Below are positions 18,615 through 41,668 of a stretch of DNA of 42,584 nt, piece after piece. Numbering within the stretch: the first letter of the stretch is position 1; the number at the start of each line of letters is the position of its first letter. Both the position numbers and the translations under genes were made by a program. The stretch is from Marinobacter sp. (GTDB taxonomy: Bacteria > Pseudomonadota > Gammaproteobacteria > Pseudomonadales > Oleiphilaceae), in contig JAKLLS010000013.1 in the NCBI GenBank assembly GCA_022014155.1, positions 1-42,584 on the forward strand. Reading direction: 5' to 3'. Below the pieces are notes generated by a model. It searched no databases. It worked only from the letters and a program-made list of their open reading frames with translations, and had not been told where the DNA came from.

Positions 18615-20063
18615 ATGCTCAGGCGTACCAAAATTGTCGCCACCCTCGGACCCGCAACCGATTCTCCGGAATCCCTCGCTGCCATTATCGAAGCGGGCGT
18701 TGACGTTACCCGACTGAACTTTTCCCATGGCAGCGCCGAAGAGCACATCGACCGTGCTCGCCGCGTCCGCGAAACAGCGGCCAGTCAGAACCGTTTTGTG
18801 GCACTCCTGGCGGATCTCCAGGGCCCCAAACTCCGCATTGCCCGCTTTACGGACAATAAAGTTACCCTGAAGGCTGGCCAGACGTTTGTTCTGGATGCCG
18901 CAATGGATAAAGAAGCAGGCACTGATAAACGGGTGGGTATTGATTACGAGCAACTCATTCAGGACGTGGAACCCGGCGATATCCTGGTTCTGGATGACGG
19001 TCGCATCGAGATGGAAGTGACATCGGTAGACGCCAATAGCATTACCTCCACCGTCCTGATCGGTGGCCCGCTGTCCAACAATAAGGGCCTGAACAAACGT
19101 GGCGGCGGTCTGTCCGCTGACGCCCTGACCGAGAAGGACAAACAGGACATCGTGACGGCGGCTCGTCTTGGTGCGGATTACGTGGCGGTTTCGTTCGTTC
19201 GAACCGCAGAAGACATGCATACTGCCCGCCGATTGCTGAAGGAAGCCGGCTCCGACGCGGGACTGGTCGCCAAGATCGAGCGTGCGGAACTGGCCCATGA
19301 CGTGGACGCCCTGGACGCCGTGATTGAAGCTTCCGACGCAGTGATGGTCGCCCGTGGCGACCTGGCAGTGGAGATTGGCGATGCCGAACTGGTCGGCGTG
19401 CAAAAGCACATTATCTCCCGCGCCCGGGTACTGAACCGCGCCGTCATCACCGCCACCCAGATGATGGAGTCGATGATTACCAGCCCCATGCCCACGCGGG
19501 CCGAGGTTTCAGACGTGGCCAACGCGGTCATGGATTACACCGATGCGGTGATGCTGTCCGCGGAGACTGCCGTAGGCGACTACCCGACAGAAGCGGTGGA
19601 GGCCATGGTCCGCATCTGTCTGGGCGCGGAAAAACAGCCTTCCATGCACCAGTCGAAGCACCGGATTCACGAGAGCATGGGGAAGGTGGATGAAGCCATT
19701 GCGTTGTCTGCCATGTATGCCGCGAACCACCTGGAAGGCGTATCCGCGATCATCTGCATGACGGAAACTGGCGCCACGCCACGACTGATGTCCCGCATCA
19801 AGTCGAGCCTGCCGATTTTCGCGTTTTCCCGCCACCACTCCACGCAGCACCGGGTTGCACTATTCCGAGGCGTTCAGACCGTTCCGTTTGATTCGGCGAA
19901 GATTCCCAACGAGCGCACCAATGCGCTGGCAGTCTCCGAACTGATCAGCCGACAGGTGGTGAAGGAAGGTGATCTGGTGGTGATGACCAAAGGCGATTAC
20001 GTCAACGCCCAAGGTGGGACCAATACTATGAAGATTGTTCGGGTTGGGCAGGATATTCGCTGA
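18615..20063 (+). CDS. pyk: Pyruvate kinase
   Basis: 482 residues, nearer to E. coli PykA (480) than PykF (470). [15 protein letters not shown] opens the barrel, [10 protein letters not shown] follows, and the active-site signature is [10 protein letters not shown] with [13 protein letters not shown] and the TQMMESMI helix; the C-terminal effector domain is complete. It converts phosphoenolpyruvate and ADP to pyruvate and ATP. It lies 67 bp after gap in the same direction with its own AGGA site. A hairpin follows the stop. Confidence 0.95.
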
Positions 20064-20076
20064 TCTCTTCTCACAC

Positions 20077-34794: not shown

Positions 34795-36378
34795 TCAACG
34801 CCCCGGGTAAACCTCCTTGATCTCAGGATCGGGCTTCATGCCCACGGCGCTCCAGCTCGGCAGCTCATCCACCGCTCGCAGGGCCTGTGGCAGCGGCGAG
34901 CGAACGCTTTCCTCGACCCAGCGTTTACGCTCGATGTCGCCCTGTTCCAGTGCCATCACCATTCGGCGCCGCTCGGCGTCCGGCAGATGGTCCGGCGGAA
35001 TATGGCCAAGGCAGGGGTTGGCGTGATTGAGGGCAACACCATTAACCAGCCCACGCTGCACCTGCAGGGAGTAGTCCAGGGCGCGCATCGGTGGCGACGC
35101 CACCGGCGGACTTTCCGGCTCGCAATAACCCGGTGGCACGGTCATCTGGCCAAACGGCTCGCTGCCGGCGATGTTGCGGAACCAGTATTGCCGCTCGGTG
35201 GCGCTGCAACTGTTGTCCGGCAGCATCCTCGCGGCGGTGTAAGCGCCCACGCTGGTCTGGCCCTCCCTTACCTGGGCCGTGGAGTGGCAGCTCATGCAGG
35301 CAGACTGGGGATTGTCCACCGGACCGTTCAGGCGGCCATGCAGGCCCACGTGACCGTCGAACGGAGCCGGTACCGCCGGGTTGATCCAGGTTTCATCGAG
35401 ATCGGGGTCGCCATCGAAGGTGACGTCCGGGTCGTTCCCCCAGGCCAGCCCCACCGGGGTCAGGTTATACCAGCGCTGTTGCGGCATCGCCGCAGGCAGG
35501 GATTCGTCGTACACATAGGTGGCGAACACCCAACCGGAGTCGGTGGAGCGCGGGTCCTTCACCGCGATATCCATCTGAATCAGCCGCACCTCAAAGGTGG
35601 CGTTCGACGCCGAGAACGGGTCCTGGATCTGCCAGGCAGGCGCATTGGCCAGCGGATCGGGGCCCACTATGGCGGCGGGATCGTACTCGGCGAACAACAC
35701 CTTCACCACCAATGTGCCGTCGATGAACTGCGACTGGCCGGCATCGGCATTGCTCGGCTCCGGGTCGTGGAACACCTGCCCGATGGTGTAGCCGCCGTGC
35801 CAGTTGTACATTCCAATACCAAAGGCCCCCACATCGGAGGACAGCCACGACTGCTCGGACGCCCGCAGCCCGCGTTCGCGGGTCAACCCGTGGCGGGGCT
35901 CGCGGGGGAAGAAGCCGGAGGTCATCATGGGTACGTGGTACCAGCGTTTCTTGCCCAGGGTGTGGTTTTGCGGCACGAAATCATGGGGCACCAGGTCTGA
36001 TAGCGCGTAGTCTTTCAAAGCCTCAAGGTATGAAGCCCGTTCGGTCGGATCGGTAAAATCAAACGCCAGCCAGGGCGCACTGTCAAAGGAGGATAGCGGG
36101 TCCCAACCGGTAATCTCGCCGTCGTCGTTCACCACCGGCACGCCAAGGGGATACCCCTGAGCCAGGCGAAACGCTTCCACGTCACCCGGCGGCGCGGCGC
36201 GGGCTATCCAGTCGGGGAACCAGCCGGAACACTGTACGGTGTAGTCATCCCCGGCGCCGCCACCTTCCCCCGTCGTATCCTGTATGGGCGGATCAAACGT
36301 GGGGCGGCAGCCGGAGACCATGAACGCACTGACAATCGCCAGGTACAACAGTTTACGGATCAGTTGATGGTTATCCAT
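34795..36378 (-). CDS. Lipoprotein with a single c-type heme motif, partner of the copper oxidase
   Basis: 527 residues. The lipobox FMVSGC makes C24 the lipid anchor, with Arg at +2, which suggests the outer membrane. Near residue 361 the sequence SACMSCHSTAQ gives one covalent heme c site (C361-x2-C364-H365). The long N-terminal region has WDPLSSFDSAPWLAFDFTD and aromatic-rich segments I do not recognise. It starts inside the last 19 bp of the upstream copper oxidase gene, so the two are co-translated and the cytochrome may take electrons from that enzyme, or deliver them. Family unknown to me. Confidence 0.72.
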   Translation of the reverse strand: MDNHQLIRKLLYLAIVSAFMVSGCRPTFDPPIQDTTGEGGGAGDDYTVQCSGWFPDWIARAAPPGDVEAFRLAQGYPLGVPVVNDDGEITGWDPLSSFDSAPWLAFDFTDPTERASYLEALKDYALSDLVPHDFVPQNHTLGKKRWYHVPMMTSGFFPREPRHGLTRERGLRASEQSWLSSDVGAFGIGMYNWHGGYTIGQVFHDPEPSNADAGQSQFIDGTLVVKVLFAEYDPAAIVGPDPLANAPAWQIQDPFSASNATFEVRLIQMDIAVKDPRSTDSGWVFATYVYDESLPAAMPQQRWYNLTPVGLAWGNDPDVTFDGDPDLDETWINPAVPAPFDGHVGLHGRLNGPVDNPQSACMSCHSTAQVREGQTSVGAYTAARMLPDNSCSATERQYWFRNIAGSEPFGQMTVPPGYCEPESPPVASPPMRALDYSLQVQRGLVNGVALNHANPCLGHIPPDHLPDAERRRMVMALEQGDIERKRWVEESVRSPLPQALRAVDELPSWSAVGMKPDPEIKEVYPGR

Positions 36379-39300
36379 TGTCCCTCCGATGGCACGCGCT
36401 GATCGTCGATGATAAATAGCAGGTAGGCCCCCGGCGGTGCGATGTTGCCGTTGGGGGGTAGCTCCACCTGCAGGGCAGCACCGTCAAAGGTGAACGCACA
36501 CTCCACAATGCGCTGCGACATATTGAAACCATGGGTGACCGCCCCCGGGGCCAGCAGGTGGACCGTCACGATATCCGCCGCTTCCGGCGAGTCCACGGTT
36601 ATCGTCGCACCGTGGGCAGCGCTGGCCGGTGCGCTGGCAATCGTCGGCCGTGGCCGCTCGAAATACCCCGGCAGGTAACGCTCGAACACGCCCGAATTGG
36701 GATCTCCGCCAACCAGCACACTGCCGTCGGCCAACAGGATCGCGGCGGAGTGGTAACCGCGATGGTGGGTCATCACCGGCCCCAGCCTGAAACCGCTGGC
36801 GACATTGTCGGCGTCGAGCAGTTCCACCGCGCCCCCGCCAGCTACCGCGTTGGCGCCGCCAACCACCAGCACGTGCCCATCCGGCAGCAATACGGAGTTC
36901 ACCTGCTCCGCCCGCTCTAGGTTCAGGTCCGGCAGGCTTTGCCAGGCCGGCATGGCCTCCGACAGGTCGATCAGCTCGGCGGTTTTGCGAGCGGGGGCCG
37001 TATTGCCACCGATGACGACCACACGGGGTGCGTAATCCGGTGGCCGCAACGGCAACAGCACCGAGGTGCCCTTCTCTCCCCCGGTGCTCCGGTTGCCTGC
37101 AATGGTGGCATAGGTTTCCAGGCCGCCGATGGGCTCAATGGTGAAGCGGTGGGTCGGATCGTGGGGGCCGGCGATGAACAGCCGGCCGTCCGGCAGCAGA
37201 TAGGTCCATGGATAATACTGGTGGTGGTCCATCGCCGCCGGGAAATCAACCGGCGCGCTCCAGGTGCCACTGGCGGAATCCCAGATCTCCAGGGATTTCG
37301 AGGCGGAGCCGTAAATGGTGGCAATGCGACCGTCGGCCAGGGTCAGGGTGGTGGCGTAAAACCGTGGCTCGGCGGTGGACCCGGTCTGCGACCATTGTTC
37401 CGTGGCCGGGTCGAAGACAAAGGCATTCACCCAGTCGCTACCGGGGCCGGCAAAGCCGCCGTGGCCCAGCACGCGACCGTCGGGAATAAAGGCGTGGGCC
37501 GCCGACCACAGGTCGGACAGGTCGCTGTCCATACCCGGCAACGCCGCCGGCTGCGGCGAGGGCTCGGCAACCGTTGGACCCGGTGGATCGTAGAGGCGGG
37601 ACTGGTCATCCCGGGTATAGCCCCAGTACAGCACTTTGTTGGTATCGGGCAACAGGCAGGCGTGCATGAAGGTGACTTCCGGATCGACCTCCAGCTCCTC
37701 CCAGGTTCCGGGGCTGAGCTTGTCGCAGTAGCCCATCTCAGCCATCGGTATGGGGTTGCTATCATCGAACAGCTGAATACGCCCTTCCGCCAGCAAGGTC
37801 TCCTTCATGGATTCGGTAAGCCACACATCCTGGTAGGAGCGCACAACCGCGATCATGCCATTAAGCATGTGGTGGTGGACGTGGCAATGCACCAGGAAGT
37901 CCCCCATCAACCGCACTTTCTCGGCGTCGGGTGGGCGGTCGTCGGCGTCCTGGATTGCCTCAATCTCCTCCGGCAGAATCAGCGCCGGTGGCGCCACCGT
38001 GTCGAGAGTGAACGACTCCGCCGGGCCAATGGAGCGCACATCATGGTTCTCACCGGCCAGTTCCCAGCGGATGTTGTGGGGATGGAAGTTGTGCCATTCG
38101 TGGCCGAAATCCAGGTTGAACACATACCAGCGGATTTTTTGCCCGGCACGAACGATGATGGTTGGTGTGTTGCCCACGAACCCACGGCCATTGATGCAGT
38201 GGGTGACCAGCGCCGCCCCGTCCCTCGATGTCACGGTGTGATGCTGCATGCTCAGGTTATTCCAGGTAACCGTGCCGCCGGGCGCGATATCGATGGAATC
38301 CGGGTAGAAGCCCATCGCCGGCACATCGAGGATATTGACAGTGGCCACAGCGGGCCCGCCGGAGACGACATTCACAGTGCCGGTCATCCCTGGGTGGAAG
38401 GAACAGAAATACTCGTAGCTGCCGGCATCGTCGAAGGTGTGGTCAAAGGTGCCGGCGCCATTTTCCTCCATATCGCCGCTGTCGAATGCGGGTTTGGCCT
38501 GGTCGCTGACCATCTGGTGCAGGAAAAACGGCACGTGCAGCGTATTCCAGTCCGGCCGTGGCCAGAACCGTATGCGCAGGTCGCGCATCAGCCATTCCCG
38601 CAAGTCCTCGTATTGATGCTGAAGCAGCAACTCCTGCCGTCGGGTCAAACGAGCCCGCAGGGGCGTGCGAGGGTCCCGCCCCCTTGCCGGTTTCGCCTGC
38701 TTCTTGGCGGGCGCACACAACGGCAACTTGAGCCCCTTGTACACCATGTCGGGGAAGCGTTCCGGCAGCGGGAGTGGAATGGGCCAACGAAACGGGCGCT
38801 TACGAATGATGATCCCGCCAAACAGCCCCAGCCTGGAACTACCGTGGGAGGCGTGTGAGGAATGGTCGTGAAACGGCCAGGCACCAATCATGCTTTCACG
38901 CACCTGGTAGATATACGTCCAGGATTTCCCCGGGCAGATCTCGTCAGATCGGCTACCATCCGCTGCCTGTGTCCCCATCGGCCAGGCACCATCGGAATCG
39001 ATACCGTATTCAACGCCGTGGATATGCAACGAATGGGGGCGGTTATCGGCGTTATGCACGTGAATACGAACGTTATCGCCAACGTAGGCATAGAGCACGC
39101 ACCCGGGTGCCCGTCGATTCCACACCGGTTCATTGATGTCCGCATGGATCAGCTTGCTGGTATACGGAATTAGGTAGTCGGCATCCTGATACTGACGGAA
39201 AACCACCGCGCGCAGTGCGCGGGCATCACGCTCGGCATCCGGGATCACCCCCATGGGGTGCCCCATGTAGTGCATGCCGTCGCGTTTGTATTGAATGGGG

Positions 39301-39380
39301 GGAATGGCAAAGGGGTCCGGCTCAACCGGGCTGTAATCCTCCATTGCCTCGATACGCAGGTAGAAATCGCGGTCCGCCAT
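36360..39380 (-). CDS. Multicopper oxidase fused to a galactose-oxidase-like (AA5-type) domain
   Basis: 1006 residues. The multicopper oxidase part (1-520) has all four His pairs of the trinuclear cluster: H119/H121 in HSLHIHG, H171/H173 in FHDHSSH, H433/H435 in HNFHPH and H498/H500 in HCH, with type 1 ligands H430, C499, H504 and M509. A second blue-copper site, C326/H329/M332 in YFCSFHPGM, lies in an inserted cupredoxin. Residues 620-1006 form a kelch propeller plus DUF1929 domain, keeping the galactose oxidase ligands Y675, Y876/H877 and H950. S626 stands where the cross-linking Cys is expected. AAGGAGG precedes the ATG and there is no signal peptide. Substrate unknown; it overlaps the heme lipoprotein gene by 19 bp. 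Confidence 0.85.
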   Translation of the reverse strand: MADRDFYLRIEAMEDYSPVEPDPFAIPPIQYKRDGMHYMGHPMGVIPDAERDARALRAVVFRQYQDADYLIPYTSKLIHADINEPVWNRRAPGCVLYAYVGDNVRIHVHNADNRPHSLHIHGVEYGIDSDGAWPMGTQAADGSRSDEICPGKSWTYIYQVRESMIGAWPFHDHSSHASHGSSRLGLFGGIIIRKRPFRWPIPLPLPERFPDMVYKGLKLPLCAPAKKQAKPARGRDPRTPLRARLTRRQELLLQHQYEDLREWLMRDLRIRFWPRPDWNTLHVPFFLHQMVSDQAKPAFDSGDMEENGAGTFDHTFDDAGSYEYFCSFHPGMTGTVNVVSGGPAVATVNILDVPAMGFYPDSIDIAPGGTVTWNNLSMQHHTVTSRDGAALVTHCINGRGFVGNTPTIIVRAGQKIRWYVFNLDFGHEWHNFHPHNIRWELAGENHDVRSIGPAESFTLDTVAPPALILPEEIEAIQDADDRPPDAEKVRLMGDFLVHCHVHHHMLNGMIAVVRSYQDVWLTESMKETLLAEGRIQLFDDSNPIPMAEMGYCDKLSPGTWEELEVDPEVTFMHACLLPDTNKVLYWGYTRDDQSRLYDPPGPTVAEPSPQPAALPGMDSDLSDLWSAAHAFIPDGRVLGHGGFAGPGSDWVNAFVFDPATEQWSQTGSTAEPRFYATTLTLADGRIATIYGSASKSLEIWDSASGTWSAPVDFPAAMDHHQYYPWTYLLPDGRLFIAGPHDPTHRFTIEPIGGLETYATIAGNRSTGGEKGTSVLLPLRPPDYAPRVVVIGGNTAPARKTAELIDLSEAMPAWQSLPDLNLERAEQVNSVLLPDGHVLVVGGANAVAGGGAVELLDADNVASGFRLGPVMTHHRGYHSAAILLADGSVLVGGDPNSGVFERYLPGYFERPRPTIASAPASAAHGATITVDSPEAADIVTVHLLAPGAVTHGFNMSQRIVECAFTFDGAALQVELPPNGNIAPPGAYLLFIIDDQRVPSEGQWITIN

Positions 39381-39599
39381 AATATGCCTCCTTGCAGATT
39401 ACTTGCGTCCTGGAGCGTTGCCCGACGGCGACGCGCTGATGCGTATTTAATGCATACTTACAACAGAGTAGCCCCCCTAGAATATTCAACAAGATCGAAG
39501 TGTTCTTTAAAGTTCCTGCATAGAAGAACGGCTTATTTCCGGGCTAGATAACGCAGATCAGCGGTTTTGGCAAAGACATGGTAACGCTTCTAAAGCTCA

Positions 39600-39829: not shown

Positions 39830-40111
39830 CTACCGCTCACCTTCAAGGCCATGCCATACCCGGAGAATGATGATGGCAGTGGTATGGAGCGAATATCGAA
39901 AGACAAATTTCCCGAAAACCATATCTCGAACAGAGTCAGGCACCGGTGCCATTTCAACTGGCGTGCCCATCTTGGGAAAATCAGGAAGCAATTCGATTTT
40001 GCCAACCAGTTCGGTGGCGATCCGGGCTGCCGCCGATGGATTGTGGACTGCAATGAACTCCCTGAGGCGCTTTAAATCTTCAATGGCTTCGTCCGTGTAA
40101 ACCAGTTTCAC
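39830..40111 (-). CDS. RelE/ParE family toxin
   Basis: 93 residues from a GTG at 40111 that overlaps the antitoxin stop (GTGA). The compact fold pattern LVYTDEAIEDLKRLREFI, ARIATELVGKIELLPDFPKMG and FRYSLHTTAIIILRVWHGLEG is that of RelE/ParE toxins, which act as mRNA endonucleases or gyrase poisons. Because the RelE-type catalytic Arg/Lys/Tyr set is not obvious, ParE is more likely. It forms a pair with the upstream ribbon-helix-helix protein. Confidence 0.85.
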   Translation of the reverse strand: MKLVYTDEAIEDLKRLREFIAVHNPSAAARIATELVGKIELLPDFPKMGTPVEMAPVPDSVRDMVFGKFVFRYSLHTTAIIILRVWHGLEGER

Positions 40112-40380
40112 TTACCTGACCTCGGTGCATCGTGCTCGTTGTCGGTTCCCCAACTATTAAGCCAGTTGTGAACCTCGCTGGCATCAACAACCTTGCCTTG
40201 GGCAGCGGACTCCATTGCTTCCAAGGTCTGTTTCCAGCGCTCTTGCTCCAGCTGCTGCTTTTCTATGTACTCCGATAATGCTTGGTTAATTACCCAACCT
40301 TTGCTCCGGTGCAACCTACCAGCAATTGCTTCCAGGTGCTGTTCAACTTCTGCTTGAAGGCGAACCGTGGTGACGCTCAT
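40108..40380 (-). CDS. Ribbon-helix-helix antitoxin (CopG/ParD-like)
   Basis: 90 residues. The N-terminal RHH domain is VTTVRLQAEVEQHLEAIAGRLHRSKGWVINQAL (3-35), and the acidic C terminus would wrap the toxin. GAGGG lies 7 bases before the ATG and the 3' end overlaps the toxin gene by 4 bp. Such antitoxins repress their own operon; inverted motifs GACTAT and ACCCTCG recur in its promoter region. Confidence 0.85.
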   Translation of the reverse strand: MSVTTVRLQAEVEQHLEAIAGRLHRSKGWVINQALSEYIEKQQLEQERWKQTLEAMESAAQGKVVDASEVHNWLNSWGTDNEHDAPRSGK

Positions 40381-41133: not shown

Positions 41134-41190
41134 TGTATCGCTCCGCTAATGTGCGCCGCCTGCGGCGTCACCATTGAGCGGCTTGTTAGC
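41134..41190 (-). other. attC site (57 bp) inside the 3' end of brnA
   Basis: On the reverse strand GCTAAC (41190-41185) is R'', AAGCCGCT is L'', GACGCCGCAGGCGGCG forms the terminal hairpin and AGCGGAGCG the L' arm, with a degenerate R' (GCGATAC). It resembles classical 59-base elements. The last codons of brnA, encoding NKPLNGDAAGGAH, read straight through it. Confidence 0.6.
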
Positions 41191-41415
41191 AGATTCTGCC
41201 TGAAGACGCTCCACCAGCCACACCTTGATGATCGATTGGCGGGTAACGCCTATGCGCGCAGCCTCACGGTCCAACGACTCGACAACCCAAGCCGGGAAAT
41301 CGACGTTGATTCGCTTTTGTTCCTGATTAACGCGACGAGCAGAGGACAGGTCCAGGTCATCAACAATGTCTTCCTGACCTTCCTCAAATTTTTTATCGAA
41401 GTCTTTAGCTTTCAT
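41146..41415 (-). CDS. brnA: BrnA-type antitoxin
   Basis: 89 residues from the ATG at 41415, preceded by AGGAGG at nine bases; a TTG at 41424 would add three residues. The RHH-like core VNQEQKRINVDFPAWVVESLDREAARIGVTRQSIIKVWLVERL binds DNA and the toxin. It follows brnT with an 11-bp overlap, the usual toxin-first order of brnTA. Its C-terminal 13 residues are encoded by the cassette attC site. Confidence 0.85.
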   Translation of the reverse strand: MKAKDFDKKFEEGQEDIVDDLDLSSARRVNQEQKRINVDFPAWVVESLDREAARIGVTRQSIIKVWLVERLQAESANKPLNGDAAGGAH

Positions 41416-41668
41416 AGAGCTCAACCTCCTTCTTGCGGGAACGTCTGACTGAAATCAGACGAATACGAGCATCCCTGTACGTGACGACAGCCGACCAGTG
41501 CTTTTCACCAATCTTGCCTATCAGCAAAAACCTCTGCTCATCCTCTGATTTTGCGCGGATCTCCAGCAGGTATGGATCTTTCCACAGCCCTTGGGCAGCA
41601 ACGAAATCGATACCGTGCTTGTCCAGATTGGCCTGGCTTTTGGCTTCGTCGAATTCAAATTCGTCCAT
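41405..41668 (-). CDS. brnT: BrnT-type ribonuclease toxin
   Basis: 87 residues of the DUF497/BrnT family: FEFDEAKSQANLDKHGIDF at the start, then RFLLIGKIGEKHWSAVVTYRD and IRLISVRRSRKKEVELYE. BrnT is a small RelE-fold RNase that blocks translation, and the catalytic K/R/H pattern of the family is retained. AGGGA precedes the start. The gene stands just after an attC end. Confidence 0.85.
   Translation of the reverse strand: MDEFEFDEAKSQANLDKHGIDFVAAQGLWKDPYLLEIRAKSEDEQRFLLIGKIGEKHWSAVVTYRDARIRLISVRRSRKKEVELYES

Follow-up and report, generated by a model that had tools for sequence, protein, structure and literature searches.

Can a chain that joins a multicopper oxidase to a galactose-oxidase-like copper site put all of its coppers to use, and would it make peroxide in doing so? 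The question is raised by a gene of Marinobacter sp. on contig JAKLLS010000013.1 (assembly GCA_022014155.1), of which we analysed positions 1 to 42,584 of the forward strand; this whole stretch of 42,584 nucleotides is referred to below as the window. The gene opens with ATG, contains no internal stop and encodes 1006 residues in a single frame. An earlier note on this DNA had described three copper-protein modules fused in one chain, of which one half would reduce O2 to water and the other to peroxide. The layout and the copper ligands were found as described. The peroxide half of the proposal was not supported: in the window protein and its best 120 relatives, two residues on which the usual cofactor of the propeller depends have been exchanged. 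The features of the gene are as follows.

36360..39380, minus strand: fusion gene; two-domain-type multicopper oxidase, inserted permuted cupredoxin and galactose-oxidase-like propeller, 1006 residues
38781..39380, minus strand: first core cupredoxin of the oxidase (residues 1-200), with trinuclear-cluster ligands H119, H121, H171 and H173 (alignment and structure match)
38358..38504, minus strand: permuted cupredoxin, residues 293-341; its C-terminal half, which comes first, with C326, H329 and M332
38226..38354, minus strand: permuted cupredoxin, residues 343-385; its N-terminal half, which follows, with H381
37818..38204, minus strand: C-terminal core cupredoxin of the oxidase (residues 393-521), with the type-1 copper and the remaining trinuclear-cluster ligands
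36363..37715, minus strand: galactose-oxidase-like kelch propeller and early-set domain, residues 556-1006
37503..37508, minus strand: W625-S626; Ser at the place of galactose oxidase Cys228, Trp where the sister clade has Phe
37356..37361, minus strand: F674-Y675; Tyr ligand of the copper (equivalent to Tyr272), with Phe before it at the position of GlxA W288
36750..36755, minus strand: Y876-H877; propeller copper ligands (Tyr495/His496 equivalents)
36531..36533, minus strand: H950; propeller copper ligand (His581 equivalent)

Pfam matches above the curated cut-offs were obtained for Cu-oxidase_3 (residues 86-194), Cu-oxidase_2 and Copper-bind (306-337) in the oxidase half, and for Glyoxal_oxid_N (621-791) and GO-like_E_set (910-1004) in the propeller half. 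A search with the whole protein returned 1842 proteins at E <= 1e-3. The best 120 of these together with the query (121 rows) constitute clade A, and the oxidase and propeller families occur together among these listed matches, at 48-97% identity. Assembly error had been named in advance as one finding that would overturn the claim. Since a genome of the same genus carries the same protein at 97% identity on a 4.47-Mb contig, and the best 120 relatives share the layout, the fusion is real. An assembly or frame artefact joining unrelated genes has a negligible probability: the draft state of the genome (249 contigs) is a general concern, nothing was found in its favour, and both the copy on the long contig and the 120 relatives speak against it.

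The propeller copper site

The C-terminal half shows the kelch propeller and early-set domain that define AA5 enzymes, both by Pfam and in the predicted structure, from which the propeller fold is likewise predicted. All four copper ligands (Y675, Y876, H877 and H950) are present in 121/121 rows of clade A, bearing out the claim of a galactose-oxidase-like copper propeller as opposed to an unrelated kelch domain.

Galactose-oxidase chemistry is taught as dependent on a Tyr-Cys cofactor. The Cys of this cofactor is replaced by Ser (S626) in every clade A row; the Trp that precedes the ligand Tyr (W288 in GlxA) is replaced, equally without exception, by Phe (F674). A Trp (W625) that is new relative to the sister clade stands beside S626, again in 121/121. 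The protein scores 156.1 bits with the GlxA model (NCBIfam NF052501), against a curated cut-off of 800. No conserved Cys column that might supply a substitute cross-link was found within propeller residues 556-1006 (best column 85/121). C552 was considered as a replacement and rejected, being invariant in both clades alike. Because the Tyr-Cys cofactor cannot form at its usual place, ordinary two-electron, peroxide-forming turnover at this propeller is unlikely.

The same picture emerged from a search with the propeller only. Among the best 120 of its 1101 matches, Cys was absent at the cofactor position; Ser was present in 99, a gap in 20 and Gly in a single, misaligned row. The proposal that the chain combines a laccase with a standard peroxide-making galactose or glyoxal oxidase, connected by an internal electron or peroxide relay, thus agrees with the domain content and the ligands, yet the cofactor Cys is found in none of the 121 close rows and none of these 120 matches. 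We consider it very improbable for the window protein; the peroxide idea would better fit the sister clade described below, where both Cys and Trp are kept.

The 99 serine rows were also inspected for sequence preceding the propeller. The HCH motif occurs upstream in 49 and not in the other 50, of which 48 begin no more than 53 residues from the propeller; those inspected mostly continue oxidase or linker sequence. No clear stand-alone serine-type propeller was present among the 99, although this was not settled row by row. The remaining two, P0316 and P0320, keep the serine-type propeller and have oxidase sequence in which the core HCHxxxH motif has been lost.

A serine-type propeller might still function as a radical oxidase of alcohols or aldehydes, with or without H2O2, by means of a radical on uncrosslinked Tyr675 or on Trp625. 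A GlxA study (PMC13094651) reports that, without the cross-link, the unpaired electron shifts to the second-shell Trp, and W625 is a Trp held invariant beside S626 in the close rows. The Trp position of GlxA itself is Phe in all of these rows, however, and W625 gives way to His in 8 of the 99 more distant serine-type rows. A radical oxidase of this type appears decidedly unlikely.

The sister clade allowed the direction of change to be considered. At six of six loci inspected (from Pedococcus, Nitrosospira briensis, Variovorax, Actinoplanes and a gammaproteobacterial bin) the same fusion retains the cofactor Cys. The full set consisted of the best 120 of 1407 matches to the Nitrosospira protein plus that query, giving 121 rows that exclude the window protein (P0001). 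In all 121, position 626 is Cys, 674 is Trp, 625 is Phe and 509 is Leu, and the four propeller copper ligands are complete.

Three AA5 propellers from the same taxonomic order, whose matches lay entirely outside the oxidase half, served as the outgroup and carry Phe, Cys and Trp (3/3). In a careful propeller tree built from 28 of the 121 clade A rows and 27 of the 121 sister-clade (clade B) rows, the serine and cysteine clades each occupy one side of a branch with support of 100/100. In an extended tree of 18 clade A rows, 18 clade B rows and 38 serine-type rows from the propeller search, a single branch set all 56 serine-type rows apart from the rest (Shimodaira-Hasegawa-like approximate likelihood-ratio test, 100). 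FastTree had first been run on the same propeller rows and on the oxidase half; clade A received support of 0.51 and 0.67, respectively, and clade B 1.0 in both. The cofactor columns were kept in the tree alignments, and the outgroup of the careful and extended trees has long branches and an odd composition, which makes the root and the direction of change less sure than the grouping. This grouping of the serine-type rows makes the serine form look like a derived state that has been maintained, not the product of random decay. A single loss of the Cys followed by retention of the new shell is the simplest account, to be taken with caution given the long outgroup branches.

At thresholds of 97% in clade A and 90% in clade B, 13 fixed differences separate the propellers, of which three are at the cofactor, and three separate the oxidase halves, including the axial Met/Leu. 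The two 121-row sets suggested that this axial residue changes together with the cofactor. That link was rejected on the more distant serine-type rows, where the axial residue is Leu in 30 of 48 readable, and on the tree, in which the axial-Met rows are nested within Leu rows.

Some sister-clade proteins carry further domains. In P0155 (residues 996-1416) and P0220 (1005-1439) the propeller is followed by a LodA-type, cysteine tryptophylquinone (CTQ) amine oxidase, making chains of four redox modules and about 1450-1500 residues. P0198 has a C-terminal second propeller resembling NHL and virginiamycin lyase (1137-1268), and several other members list these families.

The oxidase core, the permuted cupredoxin and the electron path

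The full multicopper-oxidase ligand set that had been claimed was confirmed. Ten ligands (H119, H121, H171, H173, H430, H433, H435, H498, C499 and H504) are present in all 121 clade A rows, and H500 and M509 in 120 each. The C-terminal core domain contains the motifs H430-x2-H433-x-H435 and H498-C499-H500-x3-H504-x4-M509; the type-1 copper ligands are confined to this domain, the first having HxH without Cys. Structure matches to the predicted core are ceruloplasmin and two-domain laccases, and the model superposes on a two-domain monomer over 247 residues across both domains at 2.7 Å (a model, not an experiment). According to PMC13151041, type B two-domain oxidases are trimers with interfacial trinuclear clusters. 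Because the core resembles these oxidases and ceruloplasmin, a homotrimer with trinuclear clusters between subunits is predicted.

The second cupredoxin copper site also stood up: its motif, C326, H329, M332 and H381, is invariant in clade A (121/121). Its two halves do not follow the canonical strand order of PF00127. When they were restored to that order, a single continuous match covering nearly the full profile was obtained in five of five proteins. Rejoining with the H381 strand gave 44.6 bits for the window protein, above the cut-off of 21.2, and 32.2 for the relative P0028; rejoining with the H288 strand also gave a continuous match, at 39.9 and 28.0 bits respectively. By these scores the ligand strand is more likely that of H381 than that of H288. 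The strand in question (280-290, with H282 and H288) lies outside the well-ordered part of the isolated domain, and H288 is conserved in both clades.

Prediction of the isolated domain yielded a predicted local distance difference test score (pLDDT) of 87.9, and the best PDB match, at a modest score, was 5syd, an azurin engineered by circular permutation. The 50 structure matches shown included no native-order cupredoxin, an absence that proves nothing by itself. The permuted cupredoxin is common to the sister clade, where the PF00127 table for one row (L021) holds the C-terminal half only. Judged from its sequence, the blue-copper domain in the middle of the chain has been circularly permuted in nature, a counterpart to the engineers' permuted azurin.

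A signal peptide was not apparent by a crude hydropathy test: no 15-residue stretch with a mean hydropathy of at least 1.6 occurs in the first 60 residues of any of the 121 clade A rows, and 1 of 122 rows was positive in the second alignment, from the sister-clade search. P0028 and many other clade A relatives possess an N-terminal domain of about 110 residues that is absent from the window copy; in P0028 (residues 1-110) it has a weak match to CarboxypepD_reg, below the cut-off.

How might these sites work together? Because the ligands of all sites are invariant, or nearly so, in the 121 rows, every copper site appears to be in use. Our preferred reading, which we hold tentatively, is of a single-chain oxidase relaying electrons via blue copper to the trinuclear site. 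Electrons would enter from a substrate at the propeller copper, from an outside donor (possibly a haem lipoprotein of the same operon), or from both. Their route would lead by way of the permuted type-1 copper and then the type-1 copper of the core to the trinuclear cluster, at which O2 would become water. The propeller would act as a one-electron copper-tyrosine (or copper-tryptophan) site, not as a peroxide-making radical oxidase, and each chain would bind six coppers. A more elaborate form of this relay seems unlikely: the permuted blue copper would wire a rebuilt-cofactor propeller site into a trimeric, 18-copper oxidase that turns O2 to water and releases no peroxide. In this form the rebuilt cofactor would have no Tyr-Cys bond, its Trp having moved from beside the Tyr to beside the lost Cys.

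The sequences give no evolutionary evidence of the two modules changing together, which slightly lowers our confidence in the relay, in its simple and in its more elaborate form. The propeller could instead be a non-catalytic scaffold, copper-binding or substrate-docking module, leaving the multicopper oxidase to work alone on phenols, metals or cuprous ions; the loss of both cofactor residues and the intact oxidase core speak for this. This alternative is credible but doubtful: the four copper ligands are invariant, the replacement residues are themselves invariant, which is unexpected under decay, and the two distant relatives noted above keep the serine propeller after losing the core motif. 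Should the modules prove electrically coupled, as in the preferred single-chain relay, the protein would offer a model of oxidation linked to four-electron O2 reduction without peroxide release.

Distribution and genomic setting

The fusion is rare and patchy. The window genome (3.76 Mb in 249 contigs, 82% complete) holds one full copy, a second match being confined to the early-set region. The full-length protein was present in 2 of 61 genomes of the genus searched and, at E <= 1e-60, in 1 of 398 genomes sampled across the phylum, that one being the window's own. Named relatives come from Nitrosomonas, Variovorax, Piscinibacter, Lewinellaceae, Mangrovivirga, Candidatus Troglogloeales and other records, and one lies in a bin labelled Nitrosopumilus, a label that may be misassigned. 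Of loci L003-L025, 23 in all, twelve were inspected for their ligand residues (L003, L005, L009, L010, L013, L018 and L020-L025); alignment A3 leaves out L006 and L019, the latter being partial. In Nitrosomonas sp. Nm166 (L014, 10226-11098 and 12601-13810), the genes after the fusion resemble, by eye, a subtilisin-type peptidase and small PGFT-motif peptides.

Within the window, the fusion gene forms a unit with the gene downstream.

34795..36378, minus strand: downstream gene (P0002), sharing 19 bases with the fusion gene; product of 527 residues, lipoprotein-like, with a single CxxCH haem motif
34797..39535, no strand assigned: two-gene unit shared with the same-genus relative G054 at 93.9% identity, with unrelated DNA on both sides

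The putative donor was examined further. Its score against cytochrome P460 (PF16694) was 26.4 bits, just below the cut-off of 27, and a search of solved structures returned one match at an E value of 0.15. The haem lipoprotein is an optional partner at most, because its gene is frameshifted in G054 (L055, 8449-10031), it was found in 2 of 97 related genomes, and a tblastn search of L001-L035 matched only L001, the window itself, leaving none of 33 relatives' loci with the gene.

Since around the gene the unit alone is shared, its flanks are unrelated, and its G+C content in 1-kb bins (61-65%) exceeds that of the adjoining DNA (49-54% at 33-35 kb and 39-42.6 kb), the comparison suggests that the two genes arrived horizontally. 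A second stretch of the window, 19210-20064, matches the fetched 34 kb of G054 at 91.7% identity, and some chromosomal neighbourhood is therefore common to the two genomes. Inverted repeats of at least 12 bases, sought as mobile-element ends, were absent from both edges of the unit in the window and in G054, and no tRNA was found in the window. Upstream of the fusion gene, two toxin-antitoxin pairs were observed at 39830-40380 and 41146-41668: ParE with a ribbon-helix-helix protein, and BrnT with a ribbon-helix-helix protein.

Comparison with known systems

The earlier note knew of no characterised enzyme with this layout, and searches of open-licence papers listed none; nor did they list any description of the fusion, of a natural serine-type AA5 site or of a natural permuted cupredoxin. 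Database names of the relatives, where given, are those of single domains. The parts are each of known kinds; the combination and the rebuilt cofactor shell are new.

The ligand pattern and core arrangement are those of the type B two-domain multicopper oxidases (small laccases such as SLAC, and CjMCO of Cellvibrio japonicus). Here, however, about 190 extra residues lie between the two domains, forming a helical hairpin and the permuted cupredoxin with its own type-1 ligands. This third cupredoxin takes the protein outside a class defined by two cupredoxins only, and, unlike SLAC and CjMCO, it has a C-terminal propeller and no signal peptide was seen. Ceruloplasmin and the six-domain multicopper blue proteins have three two-domain units per chain, whereas the window protein has one. 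With plastocyanin, amicyanin and halocyanin (PF00127) the middle domain has in common the type-1 ligands, H381, C326, H329 and M332, but its halves are in swapped order.

Among LodA/GoxA-family systems, PMC4417212 describes LodA fused to a catalase domain and operons with multicopper oxidases, and contains no mention of galactose oxidase. A LodA, oxidase and propeller fusion occurs only in relatives of the window protein and not in the window.

With the AA5 copper radical oxidases (GlxA of Streptomyces, galactose oxidase and glyoxal oxidase) the propeller shares its Tyr, Tyr, His and His ligands; it differs in the missing cofactor Cys, in the Phe at the W288 position of GlxA and in the Trp adjoining the lost Cys. 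The closest comparison is with the sister clade (Nitrosospira briensis, Pedococcus, Actinoplanes and others), which has the same modules and all of the copper ligands but keeps the cofactor Cys and Trp, and has Leu instead of Met as the axial core type-1 residue. One whole clade thus keeps the copper site within a different, fixed cofactor shell while the other has the standard shell, both being built on one scaffold; this natural experiment makes the roles of the thioether and the second-shell Trp directly testable.
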